In this document: piece after piece, positions 716-55,683 of the stretch
Layout of the letters: each line of letters starts with the position of its first letter
Numbering within the stretch: position 1 is the first letter of the stretch
The notes under the pieces: generated by a model
The model's database searches: none
What the model saw: the letters and a program-made list of their open reading frames with translations, nothing else
Told to the model about the DNA's origin: nothing
Translations under genes and position numbers: made by a program
DNA from: Sphingobacteriales bacterium
GTDB taxonomy: Bacteria; Bacteroidota; Bacteroidia; Sphingobacteriales; Sphingobacteriaceae
Direction: 5' to 3'
Assembly (NCBI GenBank): GCA_028288165.1
Contig: JAQBOG010000039.1
Location: 62,001 to 126,000, forward strand
Length of the DNA: 64,000 bases

Positions 716-1372
716 TTAATTAGTTATAATCTGTCCGTCTTTCATGAAAATTTTTCTGTCGGCTAAATTCGCCAGATTTTCATTATGCGTTACAATAATA
801 AAAGTTTGATTTAAACGATTTCGTAGATCAACAAACAAATTATGCAAGCTTTCAGCATTGGCCGAATCAAGATTGCCCGATGGCTCATCAGCCAAAATAA
901 TGGAAGGATTATTTATCATTGCCCTGGCAACGGCCACACGCTGCTGCTCTCCACCCGAAAGTTCAGATGGTTTATGATTTGCTCTGCTTTCAAGGCCAAG
1001 TAAATCCAGCAATTTCATTGCCCGGTGTTCTGCATCTTTCTTACTTGTTTTAGCGATATAAGCCGGAATGCAAATATTTTCGATAGCAGTAAACTCTGGC
1101 AAAAGATGATGAAATTGGAATATAAAACCAATATTTTCATTTCTAAAAGCACTTAATTTTTTATGGGATAAAGAGTTTATCGATACCCCCTTTATTTCTA
1201 CGATGCCAAAATCAGGTTTGTCTAGCGTACCAATAATATGTAACAATGTACTTTTACCAGCACCCGAGGCACCAACAATCGTAATAATTTCGCCTGTTTC
1301 AACTTCCAGGTTTACACCTTTTAGAATTTGCAAACTCCCGTAAGATTTTTTGATATCCTTGGCTTTTAGCAT
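716..1372 (-). CDS. lolD: LolD-type ABC transporter ATP-binding protein
   Basis: This is a 218-residue ABC ATPase of the MacB/LolD type. It shows Walker [10 protein letters not shown] at about residues 34-42, a Q-loop (FIFQFHHL), the signature LSGGEQQR, Walker [13 protein letters not shown] and the switch His in IIVTHNEN. LolD powers release of lipoproteins from the inner membrane with LolC/E-type permeases, and both the length and the EPSGNLD motif fit. No permease gene lies nearby, so the partner must be encoded elsewhere. The related FtsE and MacB ATPases cannot be fully excluded. It is the first gene of the three-gene minus-strand operon. Confidence 0.8.
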
Positions 1373-26695: not shown

Positions 26696-26970
26696 AATTC
26701 ATTGAATTAACTTCTGTTTAGATTTAAATAGATTAAGGTACTGTAAGTGTGAGTTGGATAAAGGTAATTTAATAAATGTATCAATTAAATACGTTTTATG
26801 TTGGTTTAGATTCTATTACCCTGTTTGGAGAAGCAAACAATTTTTGTTCCGCAATGCTTTAAAAAAATTTTCATTGCCAAACCACCATAAATATTTACGC
26901 AGCTCTGATTATCAGAGTGATGAAATAGTGCAAGGTTTAATTTACTGATATTTTATTGAATATTTACGGT

Positions 26971-27052
26971 GCGTTAGAGATTGGCGTGAAAATCCTTTTT
27001 GCTTCCTACCAGCAAAAAGATTGTAACAGAAAGCTCGCTCGAACGCCCAAAT
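26971..27052 (-). repeat. Dispersed intergenic repeat, copy 3
   Basis: Inverted relative to copies 1 and 2: GCGTTAGAGATTGGCGTGAA, then AATCCTTTTTGC and GCAAAAAGATT around a short loop, GTAACA, and CTCGCTCGAACGCCCAAAT. It lies in the roughly 470-bp gap before asnS. The rest of that gap (26696-26970) holds no gene that I can support. Confidence 0.85.
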
Positions 27053-34645: not shown

Positions 34646-34734
34646 TTGGGCGTTCGAGCGGGCTTTTTGTTACAATCTTTTTGCGAAGGGTGCAAAAAGG
34701 ATTTTCACGTCAATCCCTAACGCAAAACCTAGCA
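34646..34734 (+). repeat. Dispersed intergenic repeat, copy 4
   Basis: Best-preserved copy: TTGGGCGTTCGAGCGGGCTT, TTGTTACAATC, hairpin CTTTTTGC / GCAAAAAG, GATTTTCACGTCAATCCC, then TAACGCAAAACCTAGCA. Confidence 0.9.
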
Positions 34735-34903: not shown

Positions 34904-35674
34904 TTACTTCCTAATCGTAGCAACAAATTCAGGTATCCGATTGATTGCATCTGGAGTATCCAAAAACTTAACAAATGCACTTCCTACAATGGCTCCTCTA
35001 GTGAATTCGGCAGCTTTGTTGAAACTATTATGATCATGAATCCCAAACCCGATCATTGTCGGATTATTTAATTCCATCTTTTGTAATCTTGCGTAATAAG
35101 CTTCCGAAGAGGTATTTACATCTAGGTTTTTGCCGGTGGTTGAAGATGATGAAAGAAGATAAATGAATGAATTACTCAATTTATCTATTTTTCGAATCCG
35201 TTCTTCAGAAGTTAGCGGTGTAATTAAAAAGACATTGCTTACATCGTGATCTAAAAAGCAATCTTTATATAGTTCCTCATATTCGTACATTGGTAAATCT
35301 GGAACAATAACACCGTCTACGCCAGCCTCTGCACAGGCTTTACAAAATTCCGGAACACCGTATTGCAAAACAGTGTTAAAGTAACCCATTAACAAAACGG
35401 GGATAGATACTCGATTTCTAAGTTCCTTTAATTGTTCAAACAGTAACTTCAGAGTCATGCCGTTGTTCAGAGCTTTTAAGGAGCTATTCTGAATAACCGG
35501 ACCGTCTGCTAAAGGATCAGAGTATGGAAAACCAATTTCAATAAAATCTACACCAGCTTTCTCTAAACCTTCAGCGATATCCAAGGTGCTGTTTATATCA
35601 GGGTAACCTGCAGTATAATAAATCGATAATAGTGGTTCTTCCTTTGTATTAAAAAGTTGATGAAGTCTGTTCAT
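34904..35674 (-). CDS. trpA: Tryptophan synthase alpha chain
   Basis: A 256-residue TIM-barrel enzyme that splits indole-3-glycerol phosphate into indole and glyceraldehyde 3-phosphate and passes indole to TrpB. Catalytic Glu46 (FIEIGFPYSDP) and Asp57 (LADGPVIQ) are present, together with VDGVIVPDLP and the phosphate-binding GFGI and GAIVGSAFVK loops. It is the last gene of the operon and lies 71 nt after trpFB. Confidence 0.95.
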   Translation of the reverse strand: MNRLHQLFNTKEEPLLSIYYTAGYPDINSTLDIAEGLEKAGVDFIEIGFPYSDPLADGPVIQNSSLKALNNGMTLKLLFEQLKELRNRVSIPVLLMGYFNTVLQYGVPEFCKACAEAGVDGVIVPDLPMYEYEELYKDCFLDHDVSNVFLITPLTSEERIRKIDKLSNSFIYLLSSSSTTGKNLDVNTSSEAYYARLQKMELNNPTMIGFGIHDHNSFNKAAEFTRGAIVGSAFVKFLDTPDAINRIPEFVATIRK

Positions 35675-35745: not shown

Positions 35746-37566
35746 TTACAAATTAAAATATTTCATATATGTCGCTAAATCTTTATCACCACGACCAGAT
35801 AGGCATACAACAACCGTTTCATTGCCTTTAAATTTCATTTTTTCTAAATAAGCTAGCGCATGAGCAGACTCAATAGCGGGAATGATCCCTTCCGTTTGGG
35901 CTAGTAGTAGGCCAGCATCTAAAGATTCTTGATCTGTAATACTTACATATTGAGCTCGTTTAGTTTTGAATAAATGGGCATGTTGCGGGCCAATTCCAGG
36001 ATAGTCTAAACCCGCTGAAATCGAATAAGGTTCAGTTACCTGGCCATCTTCTGTTTGCATCAAGATAGAACGACTACCATGTAAAACACCCTCTCTGCCA
36101 AGTGCTGTAGTTGCTGCTGATTCACCACTATCTACTCCCAATCCGGCTGCTTCTACCGCAATTAATTTAACATGCTCATCATCTAAAAAATTATAGAACA
36201 TACCAATAGCGTTACTACCACCACCCACACAAGCTAAAACATAATCTGGATACTCCGAACCTGTTTTCTCTTTCAATTGCCATTTAGTTTCTTCAGAAAT
36301 AATGGATTGAAAACGTGCAACCATATCCGGATACGGATGAGGTCCCACCACCGAGCCGATAATATAATGAGTGTCTTCAGGATTGTTAATCCAATCCCTC
36401 ATGGCTTCATTAGTAGCGTCTTTTAATGTTTTACTACCAGAAATTGCAGGAACCACCGTAGCTCCCATCATTTTCATCCTGGCTACATTTGGCGCTTGGC
36501 GTTCAATGTCTATTTCACCCATATAAACCACACATTCTAAGCCTTTTAAAGCACAAACTGTTGCGGTTGCAACTCCATGCTGACCAGCACCTGTTTCTGC
36601 AATTATTCGCTTTTTACCCAAGCGTTCAGCTAATAATATCTGCCCGATAGTATTATTTATTTTGTGTGCGCCTGTATGATTTAAATCTTCTCTTTTTAAA
36701 TAAATCTTTGCACCATATTTAGCTGATAATCGCTCAGCTAAAAATAATGGAGAAGGCCTACCCACATAATCTTTTAATAATTGATTAAACTCTTCTTGAA
36801 ATTTTGGTTCATATATTATTTTAAGATATTCCTTCCGTAAATGCTCTACGTTCGGATAAAGCATTTCTGGAATGTATGCACCTCCAAAATCACCGTAATA
36901 ACCTTTTTCGTTTACATTATAACTCATACTTTCTGTTTCCTTAAGGATAGGCCTTAATTTATTAATAGCTAATTTTAATTTTTCAATATCTTTTTTTGCA
37001 GGTTCAGATTCAAAACAACTGTTTAAATCTACTGCATAAAGTCTGTCGTCATTGATTGCCAAAACTTTATCTAAGTTTTCTAATCCCAAACCTCCACTTA
37101 AAAAGTAAGGTTTCGAAAATGTGTATTTTTCCAAAACCTGCCAATTAAATGTTAAGCCAGAGCCACCATGAGCCTTCGTTTTGGTATCGAATAAAAAGTA
37201 ATTCACTGAATCAAGGTATGGTAACAGTTGATTAAAGTCGAATGCTTCATCAACACCAAAAGCTTTGATAACTTCTACTCCAGATTCAGCAATTTTTAAA
37301 CATGTATCAGATGTTTCTGATCCATGTAATTGAACCGCTTGTAAGTGGTACTTTTTGATGTAATCTAAAATTACGGATGCATTTTCATCTACAAAAACGC
37401 CTGTTTTTTTGATGCATGAGGGAATATCCTTGATAGTTTGTTCGTCGATTTCTGCGACAAATCTTTTAGATTTATCATAAAATATGAATCCTATATAATC
37501 AGGATTAAGTAAAACCAAATCCCTGATATTGTCAGGATATTTCATTCCACAAACTTTTATTTTCAT
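35746..37566 (-). CDS. trpFB: Fused phosphoribosylanthranilate isomerase and tryptophan synthase beta chain
   Basis: This is one 606-residue frame containing two full-length enzymes. Residues 1-210 are TrpF ([14 protein letters not shown], with catalytic Cys6, and VDLNSCFE near 180 with catalytic Asp180). Residues 214-606 are Trp[15 protein letters not shown], the PLP lysine 302 in [37 protein letters not shown] and GRGDKDL. The TrpB part begins MSYNVNEKG exactly where free TrpB proteins begin, and AAGGAA lies upstream of that internal ATG (36927), so separate initiation of TrpB is possible. The start overlaps trpD by 4 nt (ATGA). Confidence 0.92.
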
Positions 37567-38549
37567 GCTACCAGTTTTTTGAAACTATTCAATGCATTTT
37601 TATTAAGCAAAGATTCTTCTGCTTCATAAAAGCAATCTGCAAAAGAGATATCAGGCTTAATCGTCTTGATAGCAAGGGCAGCATTACATAAAACCACATT
37701 GTTTTGTTCAGCAGTTCCTGATCCGTCTAATACCGATGTGAAAATTTTTGCAGATTCTTCAACCGTACTTCCACCGGTGATGGTGTTGGCATTTATATAA
37801 TCAAATCCTAAATTTTTGACCGAGTAGTTCTGTTCGCCTTTATTAGAAAAGGTTTTAAAATCACAGGTTAGTGAAACTTCATCATAACCCTCAAACGCAT
37901 GGATAATAGTGTATTTTTTATCAGATTGCTGATACAAGTAAGCATATAATCGTGCTAGCTCCAAGCTAAATACGCCAACCAATTGGTGTTTCGGCTGAGC
38001 TGGATTAACCATTGGACCTAACATGTTGAAAAACGTTTTCACTCCTAGTTCCCTTCTCAACGGAGCCACATTTTTCATTGCCGGATGAAAAAGAGGTGCA
38101 TGAAGAAAGCAAATTCCGGCGTTATCCAGACTGTTTTTTAATTCATCTACAGCATTTGTAAACTTATATCCTAGATATTCCATCACATTGGAGGACCCAC
38201 AACCAGATGACACCCCGTAATTTCCATGTTTAGCTACTTTATATCCTGCTCCTGAAACTACAAAGGAAGCTAGCGTTGAAATATTGAACGTGTCTTTACC
38301 ATCTCCTCCGGTTCCGCATAAATCTATCAATTCATAATCAGAAAGATCGGTTCGTAAGCAAAGCTCAAGCATGGCATCCCGAAAGCCCCCTAACTCTTCA
38401 ACAGTTATATTGCGCATACAGTAGGCTGCCATAAAAGCAACCATTTGTGAATTATTATATTTCCCTAACGAGATGTGTGTAAAGATTTCCTTAGCCTCTT
38501 GTCGGCTAAAAGTTTTCTGCTCAAACAGATGGTTTAGTATTGTTTTCAT
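37563..38549 (-). CDS. trpD: Anthranilate phosphoribosyltransferase
   Basis: A 328-residue enzyme that joins anthranilate to PRPP, the second dedicated step of tryptophan synthesis. The PRPP-binding region reads [20 protein letters not shown] (about residues 78-97), followed by [37 protein letters not shown], and NMLGPMVNP. It is the first structural gene after the attenuator. trpE, trpG and trpC, usually in the same operon in this phylum, are missing from this locus. Confidence 0.95.
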
Positions 38550-38698: not shown

Positions 38699-38725
38699 AA
38701 AAAAGGGTTGCTTTGCAGCAACCCC
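38699..38725 (-). terminator. trp attenuator terminator
   Basis: On the minus strand GGGTTGCT and AGCAACCC form an 8-bp stem with loop GCAA, followed by six T. It lies between the Trp-rich leader frame and trpD. Its 5' arm (GGTTGCTG, 38716-38723) can instead pair with CAGCAATC inside the leader frame (38773-38780), giving the alternative antiterminator. Confidence 0.85.
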
Positions 38726-38757
38726 TTTGTAGTAGTTTCTTTAATGAAAAAAGAACG

Positions 38758-38832
38758 CTAAATACTTTTTATGATTGCTGAAGGATAAGTTTCATGCCAC
38801 CACCAAATAATATGAGCGTTTTTAATTTTCAT
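38758..38832 (-). CDS. trpL: trp leader peptide
   Basis: A 24-codon frame, ATG at 38832 to TAG at 38758. Codons 10-12 are three consecutive TGG (IIWWWHETYPSAIIK in the middle of the peptide). Codons 18-20 (TCA GCA ATC) contain CAGCAATC, complementary over 8 bp (one G-U) to the 5' arm of the terminator downstream. When charged tRNA-Trp is scarce, a ribosome stalled at the Trp codons would leave this segment free to pair and prevent termination. When Trp is plentiful the ribosome covers it and the terminator forms. The role is inferred from this arrangement, which is the classical attenuation design. Confidence 0.85.
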   Translation of the reverse strand: MKIKNAHIIWWWHETYPSAIIKSI

Positions 38833-38839
38833 TGCATAG

Positions 38840-38871
38840 CAAATATGAATAATCTTTTCTTTAGGTGCAAA
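38840..38871 (-). promoter_or_regulatory. Promoter of the trp operon
   Basis: On the minus strand TTTG (38868-38871) lies 20 nt before CATATTTG (38840-38847), matching the Bacteroidota -33 and -7 elements with one mismatch in the latter. Transcription would start around 38835, just ahead of the leader ATG at 38832. Confidence 0.55.
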
Positions 38872-38892: not shown

Positions 38893-39780
38893 ATGAAGGC
38901 AAGCAAACGATCCATAAAGTTATTGCGAATACAGAGAACATTCGGAAAGGCCTCCTTTATATTTGCTGGGATACTCTTGGCAGCTTTCGGTTTAAAAGGC
39001 TTTTTACTACCAAATCACTTTATTGATGGAGGCATAACAGGTATTTCTCTATTAGTGAGTAATCTAACCGGACTCCCTGTATCAATTTGGCTTATCGTAT
39101 TTAACATTCCTTTTATTTTTTTGGGTGCCAAACAGATTAATAAACAGTTTGCTATAAATACATCATTGGCCATAATAACGCTAGCCGCCGTCATTTTCTT
39201 TATCGATTTTCCAGTTATGACTAAGGATAAATTACTGATTTCTATCTTCGGTGGCTTCTTTTTAGGATCAGGCATTGGCTTAGCCATTAGAGGCGGATGT
39301 GTAATTGACGGAACAGAAATACTTGCTGTTTACTTAACTCGAAGAAGCTTTTTATCAATCGGTGATATAATCCTTTTGATTAATGTTTTAATCTTCTTAG
39401 TGGCAGCATTTATTTTAGGTAAAGAAACCGCTATGTATTCTATTTTAACCTATTTATCAGCTTCAAAAACAGTCGATTTTATTATCCAGGGAATTGAAGA
39501 ATACACAGGCGTAACCATAGTATCTTCGAAAAGCAAACAAATTAGGGATGTAATTACTAACGTTTTAGGACGTGGTGTAACTATATATAAAGGTGAAAGA
39601 GGGTTTGGCAACTCACAATATCAGAACAAAGATATCGACATTATATTCACTGTGATAACCCGCTTGGAAGTTTCCAGACTAAAAGATGAAGTAACAAAGA
39701 TTGATCATAAGGCATTTATATTTATGAATTCAATAAATGAAACAAAAGGAGGAATTATTAAAAGTCGTCCGCTTCATTAG
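38893..39780 (+). CDS. YitT family membrane protein
   Basis: A 295-residue protein with about five to six membrane helices in residues 18-205 and a C-terminal DUF2179 domain (about 210-290, VTNVLGRGVTIYKGERGFG). Conserved family motifs GFLLPNHFIDGGITGISLL and GCVIDGTEILA are visible. The family occurs widely in Bacteroidota and Firmicutes and has no established transport function. It is divergent from trpL and ends 3 nt before the KirBac gene, so the two form an operon. Confidence 0.88.
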   Translation: MKASKRSIKLLRIQRTFGKASFIFAGILLAAFGLKGFLLPNHFIDGGITGISLLVSNLTGLPVSIWLIVFNIPFIFLGAKQINKQFAINTSLAIITLAAVIFFIDFPVMTKDKLLISIFGGFFLGSGIGLAIRGGCVIDGTEILAVYLTRRSFLSIGDIILLINVLIFLVAAFILGKETAMYSILTYLSASKTVDFIIQGIEEYTGVTIVSSKSKQIRDVITNVLGRGVTIYKGERGFGNSQYQNKDIDIIFTVITRLEVSRLKDEVTKIDHKAFIFMNSINETKGGIIKSRPLH

Positions 39781-40719: not shown

Positions 40720-40733
40720 GTTCTAGACTTTTT

Positions 40734-40821
40734 TTGCGTTAGGGGGTGAAGTGAAAATCCTTTTTGCCCTCTTTCTTCGGGCAAAAAGATTGTAACGAAA
40801 CACCCGCTCGAACGCCCAAAT
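40734..40821 (-). repeat. Dispersed intergenic repeat, copy 5
   Basis: TTGCGTTAGGGGGTGAAGTG, AAAATCCTTTTTGCCC, loop, GGGCAAAAAGATTGTAACG, and CCCGCTCGAACGCCCAAAT. The hairpin stem is extended by GCCC/GGGC compared with the other copies. It lies 14 nt after the KirBac stop. Confidence 0.88.
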
Positions 40822-55550: not shown

Positions 55551-55603
55551 CAGGATTTCGACTTCAAACTAATTTAGTCAAAAAACGATATCTGGTTTGT
55601 TTC

Positions 55604-55683
55604 AGCGTTAGGGATTGACGTGAAAATCCTTTTTGCTTCTACCGCAAAAAGATTGCAACAAAAAGCCCGCTCGAACGCCCAAA
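55604..55683 (-). repeat. Dispersed intergenic repeat, copy 6
   Basis: AGCGTTAGGGATTGACGTGA, AAATCCTTTTTGC, loop, GCAAAAAGATTGCAACA, then AGCCCGCTCGAACGCCCAAA. Shortest loop of the six copies. Confidence 0.88.

Follow-up and report, generated by a model that had tools for sequence, protein, structure and literature searches.

In the trpL leader of Escherichia coli, the Trp codons are located in arm 1, the 1:2, 2:3 and 3:4 helices are mutually exclusive, the choice between them is kinetic and the free RNA terminates. The window analysed here, a 64,000 nt stretch of a Sphingobacteriales genome taken as a whole, contains a leader upstream of trpD on the minus strand that is predicted to share this arrangement, with Trp codons in arm 1, exclusive 1:2, 2:3 and 3:4 helices, a kinetic choice and termination when ribosome-free. 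A preliminary description made from the sequence alone had called it the classical proteobacterial design, and our analysis likewise suggests that it works as the textbook E. coli switch does. It differs from E. coli trpL in its near-leaderless ORF without a Shine–Dalgarno site and in its three consecutive Trp codons. The Sphingobacteriaceae leaders more broadly differ in that the position of the stop codon varies, arm 2 lies either inside or after the ORF and the sequence is unrelated. Taken together, the evidence below indicates that a ribosome-mediated tryptophan transcription attenuator very probably controls trpD-trpF/B-trpA.

Rfam family RF01692 (Bacteroid-trp) is a Bacteroidete tryptophan peptide leader RNA (Weinberg et al. 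2010, PMC2864571). The window element resembles it in several respects: a Trp-codon leader lies near the 5′ end, its Trp codons belong to the 5′ strand of a long hairpin, and the start of a GGCUUGUC-type terminator is shared. The window has the architecture that characterizes the family, a long hairpin with the Trp codons on its 5′ side and a terminator after it. The RF01692 consensus displays the 1:2 fold and not the antiterminator. The window element scored 19.5 bits against a gathering score of 49 and was therefore not filed as a member. Among flavobacterial trpE leaders, 10 of the 11 scanned were above the threshold. Sub-threshold matches beside trp genes in the Sphingobacteriaceae were located before trpD, not trpE, the best reaching 45.7 bits (genome G036), and a leader at a contig end in genome G034, for which no adjoining gene was seen, scored 53.7 bits. 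The window element is unannotated, and its kind is already partly described as RF01692. Neither the enterobacterial Trp_leader model (RF00513, up to E = 10) nor the T-box covariance model had a match in the window.

In Flavobacterium psychrophilum, which belongs to the same phylum as the window, 'strong clues' for leader-peptide attenuation at amino-acid operons have been reported; the structured 5′ elements that it names include those upstream of pheA and hisG, whereas its main text does not name trp (PMC9723704). According to a survey published in 2010, its own hisS case in Firmicutes was the first leader-peptide system to be shown beyond the Proteobacteria and Actinobacteria. No paper devoted to Trp attenuation in the Bacteroidota was returned by text searches; Lopatovskaya et al. 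2010 may hold earlier predictions.

Leader anatomy and the trpD operon

All of the attenuator parts listed in the preliminary description were recovered on the minus strand. The promoter, read from sequence, consists of a −33 TTTG (38868–38871) and the −7 element CATATTTG (38840–38847), which is of the Bacteroidota TAnnTTTG type, with a spacer of 20 nt between 38871–38868 and 38847–38840. The leader ORF (38758–38832) encodes MKIKNAHIIWWWHETYPSAIIKSI in 24 codons, from an ATG at 38832 to a TAG stop at 38760–38758, and carries in frame the three consecutive TGG codons (38797–38805) of the predicted stall site. The 5′ side of the leader had been described as very short, which stands in that the ORF is near-leaderless, with the spacing corrected: the ATG is 7 nt past the TTTG of the −7 box. 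Judging from this promoter, transcription would start within a few nucleotides of the leader ATG.

The antiterminator arm CAGCAATC (segment 2; 38773–38780), assigned from sequence and constrained folding, lies inside the ORF and is complementary to the terminator 5′ arm segment GGTTGCTG, its alternative partner, over 8 bp including one G-U pair, as previously proposed. Its distance from the last Trp codon is 16 nt, where 13 nt had been given. Sequence and folding place the intrinsic terminator, segments 3:4, at 38699–38728 (AAAGGGGTTGCTGCAAAGCAACCC and a T run), reading GGGTTGC-TGCAAA-GCAACCC-TTTTTT with its 3′ end at 38699. The 1:2 hairpin (38754–38820) was present in both the MFE and centroid folds and pairs the arm AACGCU..AUAUU plus the Trp codons with the antiterminator arm plus AGUAU..AGCGUU; its inner part is weak in the window's own leader (UGAA/UUCA). 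A model in which the inner hairpin was compatible with the antiterminator was dropped, and addition of the pre-Trp arm gave the full 1:2 helix. The fold of the 148 nt leader, far more favourable than that of shuffled sequence (z = −5.15), and a genome-wide search for the TTTG-ATG-TGGTGG pattern, in which, among the matches listed, an in-frame WWW occurred only in the two trp leaders, both argue that the leader did not arise by chance.

The elements expected of a trpL-type leader were therefore found together: a trp gene preceded by a short ORF that looks translated and has its Trp codons in a cluster, an intrinsic terminator ahead of the first structural gene, a 1:2 hairpin involving the Trp codons and, from folding and comparison, a terminator-excluding antiterminator arm that would be freed by a stalled ribosome and covered by a finishing one.

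The first gene of the controlled operon is trpD, encoding anthranilate phosphoribosyltransferase (37563–38549; Pfam PF00591 and PF02885), which starts 149 nt from the terminator. It is followed on the same strand by a single 606-aa ORF containing both trpF and trpB (35746–37566; PF00697 and PF00291) and by trpA (34904–35674; PF00290). In 43 of 43 named relatives trpF and trpB are separate genes; the 606-aa frame reflects either a genuine gene fusion or an indel in the assembly of this MAG. A gene for a YitT/DUF2179 membrane protein (38893–39780, plus strand) is divergent from the leader ORF, with a gap of approximately 60 bp that contains the promoter. The Flavo-1 RNA motif (RF01705) also occurs five times in the window, at 1535–1630, 26969–27044, 34652–34728, 40731–40813 and 55600–55676.

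Conservation and covariation in relatives

To compare relatives, 60 genomes were searched and 80 named loci were fetched; the Sphingobacteriaceae sampled included Pedobacter, Mucilaginibacter, Sphingobacterium, Parapedobacter, Pelobium and others. The Trp block was present in 73 of 76 Sphingobacteriaceae trpD upstream regions, and in nearly all of these trpD leaders an antiterminator arm and a covarying terminator were found downstream of it. In some relatives the block is interrupted (Trp-Arg-Trp or Trp-Cys-Trp). A clear Trp block was not seen in the trpD upstream regions of L122 and L030; the absence at L025 is apparent only, the region being cut by a contig end, and the genome concerned has a leader of the same type at a different contig end. 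The preliminary description had named the trpD upstream regions of relatives as the place where the model could fail, and there the Trp codons proved to be conserved, as did the two alternative pairings, with covariation. Its expectation that a pause hairpin was unlikely did not hold, since the family has a long, conserved and covarying 1:2 hairpin whose 5′ arm includes the Trp codons and whose 3′ arm includes the antiterminator arm.

Of 70 leaders scanned, 41 had a TTTG 18–20 nt upstream of the −7 box, and 37 of the 41 leaders having both boxes used CATATTTG or CATCTTTG as the −7 box. The median distance from the −7 TTTG to the ATG was 9 nt in 71 trpD leaders and 6 nt in trpE leaders. The leader stop codon was found 6 to 39 nt past the Trp block, so that some species have the antiterminator arm within the coding sequence and others have it beyond, which shows that selection acts on the RNA and not on the peptide tail. 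Outside the Trp codons the peptide showed little conservation across the family, and the RNA arms were conserved mainly where they pair.

Among 60 leaders, 98.1% of terminator cells were paired and compensatory changes were present. For the terminator and inner hairpin together, 86.8% of cells were paired, dropping to 28–54% in slid structures, and 73 cells were changed on both sides compared to 26 in shuffled data, with none of 500 shuffles reaching 73. RNAalifold on alignment A2 recovered the terminator as the sole element because the arms of the inner hairpin shift register between genera, and swap tests were therefore used in its place. In these, 0 of 5000 swaps reached the cognate pairing for the inner hairpin, and likewise 0 of 5000 for the antiterminator. 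The outer 1:2 stem, formed by the pre-Trp arm and the segment after the antiterminator arm, also covaries (0 of 5000 swaps, 71 distinct leaders) and does so too in 14 diverse representatives; swap tests ignore the full tree, and the representative-only tests lessen the concern over kinship without removing it.

The antiterminator core had 85.9% of cells paired in the 60 leaders, compared to 28–45% when slid. Column counting within the trpD set gave weak covariation for the antiterminator because its core is nearly invariant there, and its covariation support comes from comparison of sequences across lineages. In 18 leaders of different lineages, the mean energy was −13.7 kcal/mol for cognate arms versus −9.1 kcal/mol for swapped arms (0 of 20,000 swaps reached the cognate value), and the arm sequences were fully changed between lineages with the pairing retained. 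As judged by covariation, textbook ribosome-mediated Trp attenuation is conserved across the Bacteroidota, a phylum with unusual promoters and scant Shine–Dalgarno use, in which most of the leaders sampled go undetected by the sole Rfam model, RF01692.

Predicted switching and alternative explanations

Constrained folding was carried out with the ribosome footprint of E. coli and with RNA polymerase positioned just short of the terminator 3′ arm. For the window RNA, the probability of the antiterminator was 0.99 with the ribosome stalled on any of W1–W3, 0.00 once it had reached the stop codon and 0.00 for ribosome-free RNA. Across the family, occupancy of the terminator 5′ arm by upstream RNA was higher in the stalled state than at the stop codon in 70 of 71 leaders, with means of 0.79 and 0.37 respectively. 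Once the full terminator had been made in the window RNA, it won at equilibrium in every ribosome state; the switch must therefore depend on kinetics, as it does in E. coli.

From these results and the leader anatomy we infer stalling, termination and a response to tryptophan in vivo as follows. When charged tRNA-Trp is scarce, the ribosome would stall at the Trp codons (38805–38797), opening the 1:2 hairpin and leaving CAGCAAUC free. The freed CAGCAAUC would pair with GGUUGCUG as RNA polymerase makes the latter, ahead of the terminator 3′ arm, and an antiterminator formed before that arm exists would result in read-through. With ample tryptophan, the ribosome would reach the UAG, its footprint would extend over most of the antiterminator arm and 3:4 would terminate. 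Without a ribosome, the arm would be trapped in the 1:2 hairpin and termination would again be favoured. That stalling on Trp codons exposes the arm and completion of the peptide covers it had been suggested from the outset, and both the family comparison and the constrained folding support it.

Control could instead be translational or Rho-dependent, with stalling altering access to the start site and not intrinsic termination, and the start-codon region of the leader is indeed paired in ribosome-free window RNA (P = 0.96). This pairing is not conserved, the median being 0.15 over 73 leaders, and start-codon sequestration was dropped as a mechanism for this reason; what the family does conserve is the GC-rich stem with its T run (98.1% of cells paired), which makes control of this kind very unlikely. 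The conserved grouping of elements also bears on whether the terminator belongs to an upstream or independent transcript, with the Trp-rich ORF a coincidence and the trpD promoter further downstream. The 149 nt between terminator and trpD in the window would leave room for another promoter; however, the upstream gene (38893–39780) is divergent, and Trp block, hairpin and terminator are kept together in 73 leaders, in several of which the terminator is only 10–20 nt before trpD. We consider a coincidence of this kind scarcely credible.

It is also improbable, to a less extreme degree, that the leader RNA released by termination, or the peptide it encodes, acts in trans in the manner of Sinorhizobium rnTrpL/peTrpL, besides or instead of attenuation at trpD. 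A role in trans would predict conserved unpaired sequence, but the family has a poorly conserved peptide and arms conserved mainly as pairing, and Rfam sRNA-family matches in the window were far below threshold. In its favour, the leader peptide of Sinorhizobium is reported to have roles in trans (PMC7298713), and termination at 38699 would release an RNA of approximately 140 nt.

The trpE leader and the split pathway

The trpE, trpG and trpC genes are located elsewhere in the same genome and are preceded by their own leader, MIKQINTRGWWWPSLKQALGNQVFC, which contains WWW, and their own terminator (minus strand; L032 2908–3165 on contig C3 of genome G000). The arms of this attenuator are unrelated in sequence to those of the trpD leader, being GCGCCGGG / CCCGACGC as against GGCAAUC / GGGUUGCC. 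By inspection, a clustered Trp leader was present in 41 of 45 trpE upstream regions of the genome set. In the Cytophagales, Flavobacteriia and others, trpE and trpD are in one operon and a WWW leader precedes trpE in 32 of the 33 loci that contain this upstream region (the row for L132 is spurious, and the region is missing from L161).

One tentative reading, which we would put at somewhat below even, is that the ancestral trp operon was split in the Sphingobacteriaceae, that the trpD half retained the ancestral Bacteroid-trp leader and that trpE gained a second attenuator with unrelated arms. If so, two separately evolved Trp sensors would keep both halves of the pathway in step. A description of a split pathway with one attenuator per half was not found in the literature searched. 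Two unlike attenuators on a split pathway provide a clean natural case for the origins of such switches and for the coupling of translation to transcription at a near-leaderless ORF.

Two observations were made at other leaders. Upstream of hisG, on contig C37 of the same genome, there is a His-rich leader ORF, MNRLLSHHVHLHHHLRVML (L182, approximately 1223–1282, plus strand), with an overlapping hairpin; a clear terminator was not seen at this leader. Upstream of trpE in L131, L139, L143 and other Flavobacteriia, a TCGTGA-type arm complements the terminator loop and the start of the 3′ arm, not the 5′ arm, and is a possible variant antiterminator.
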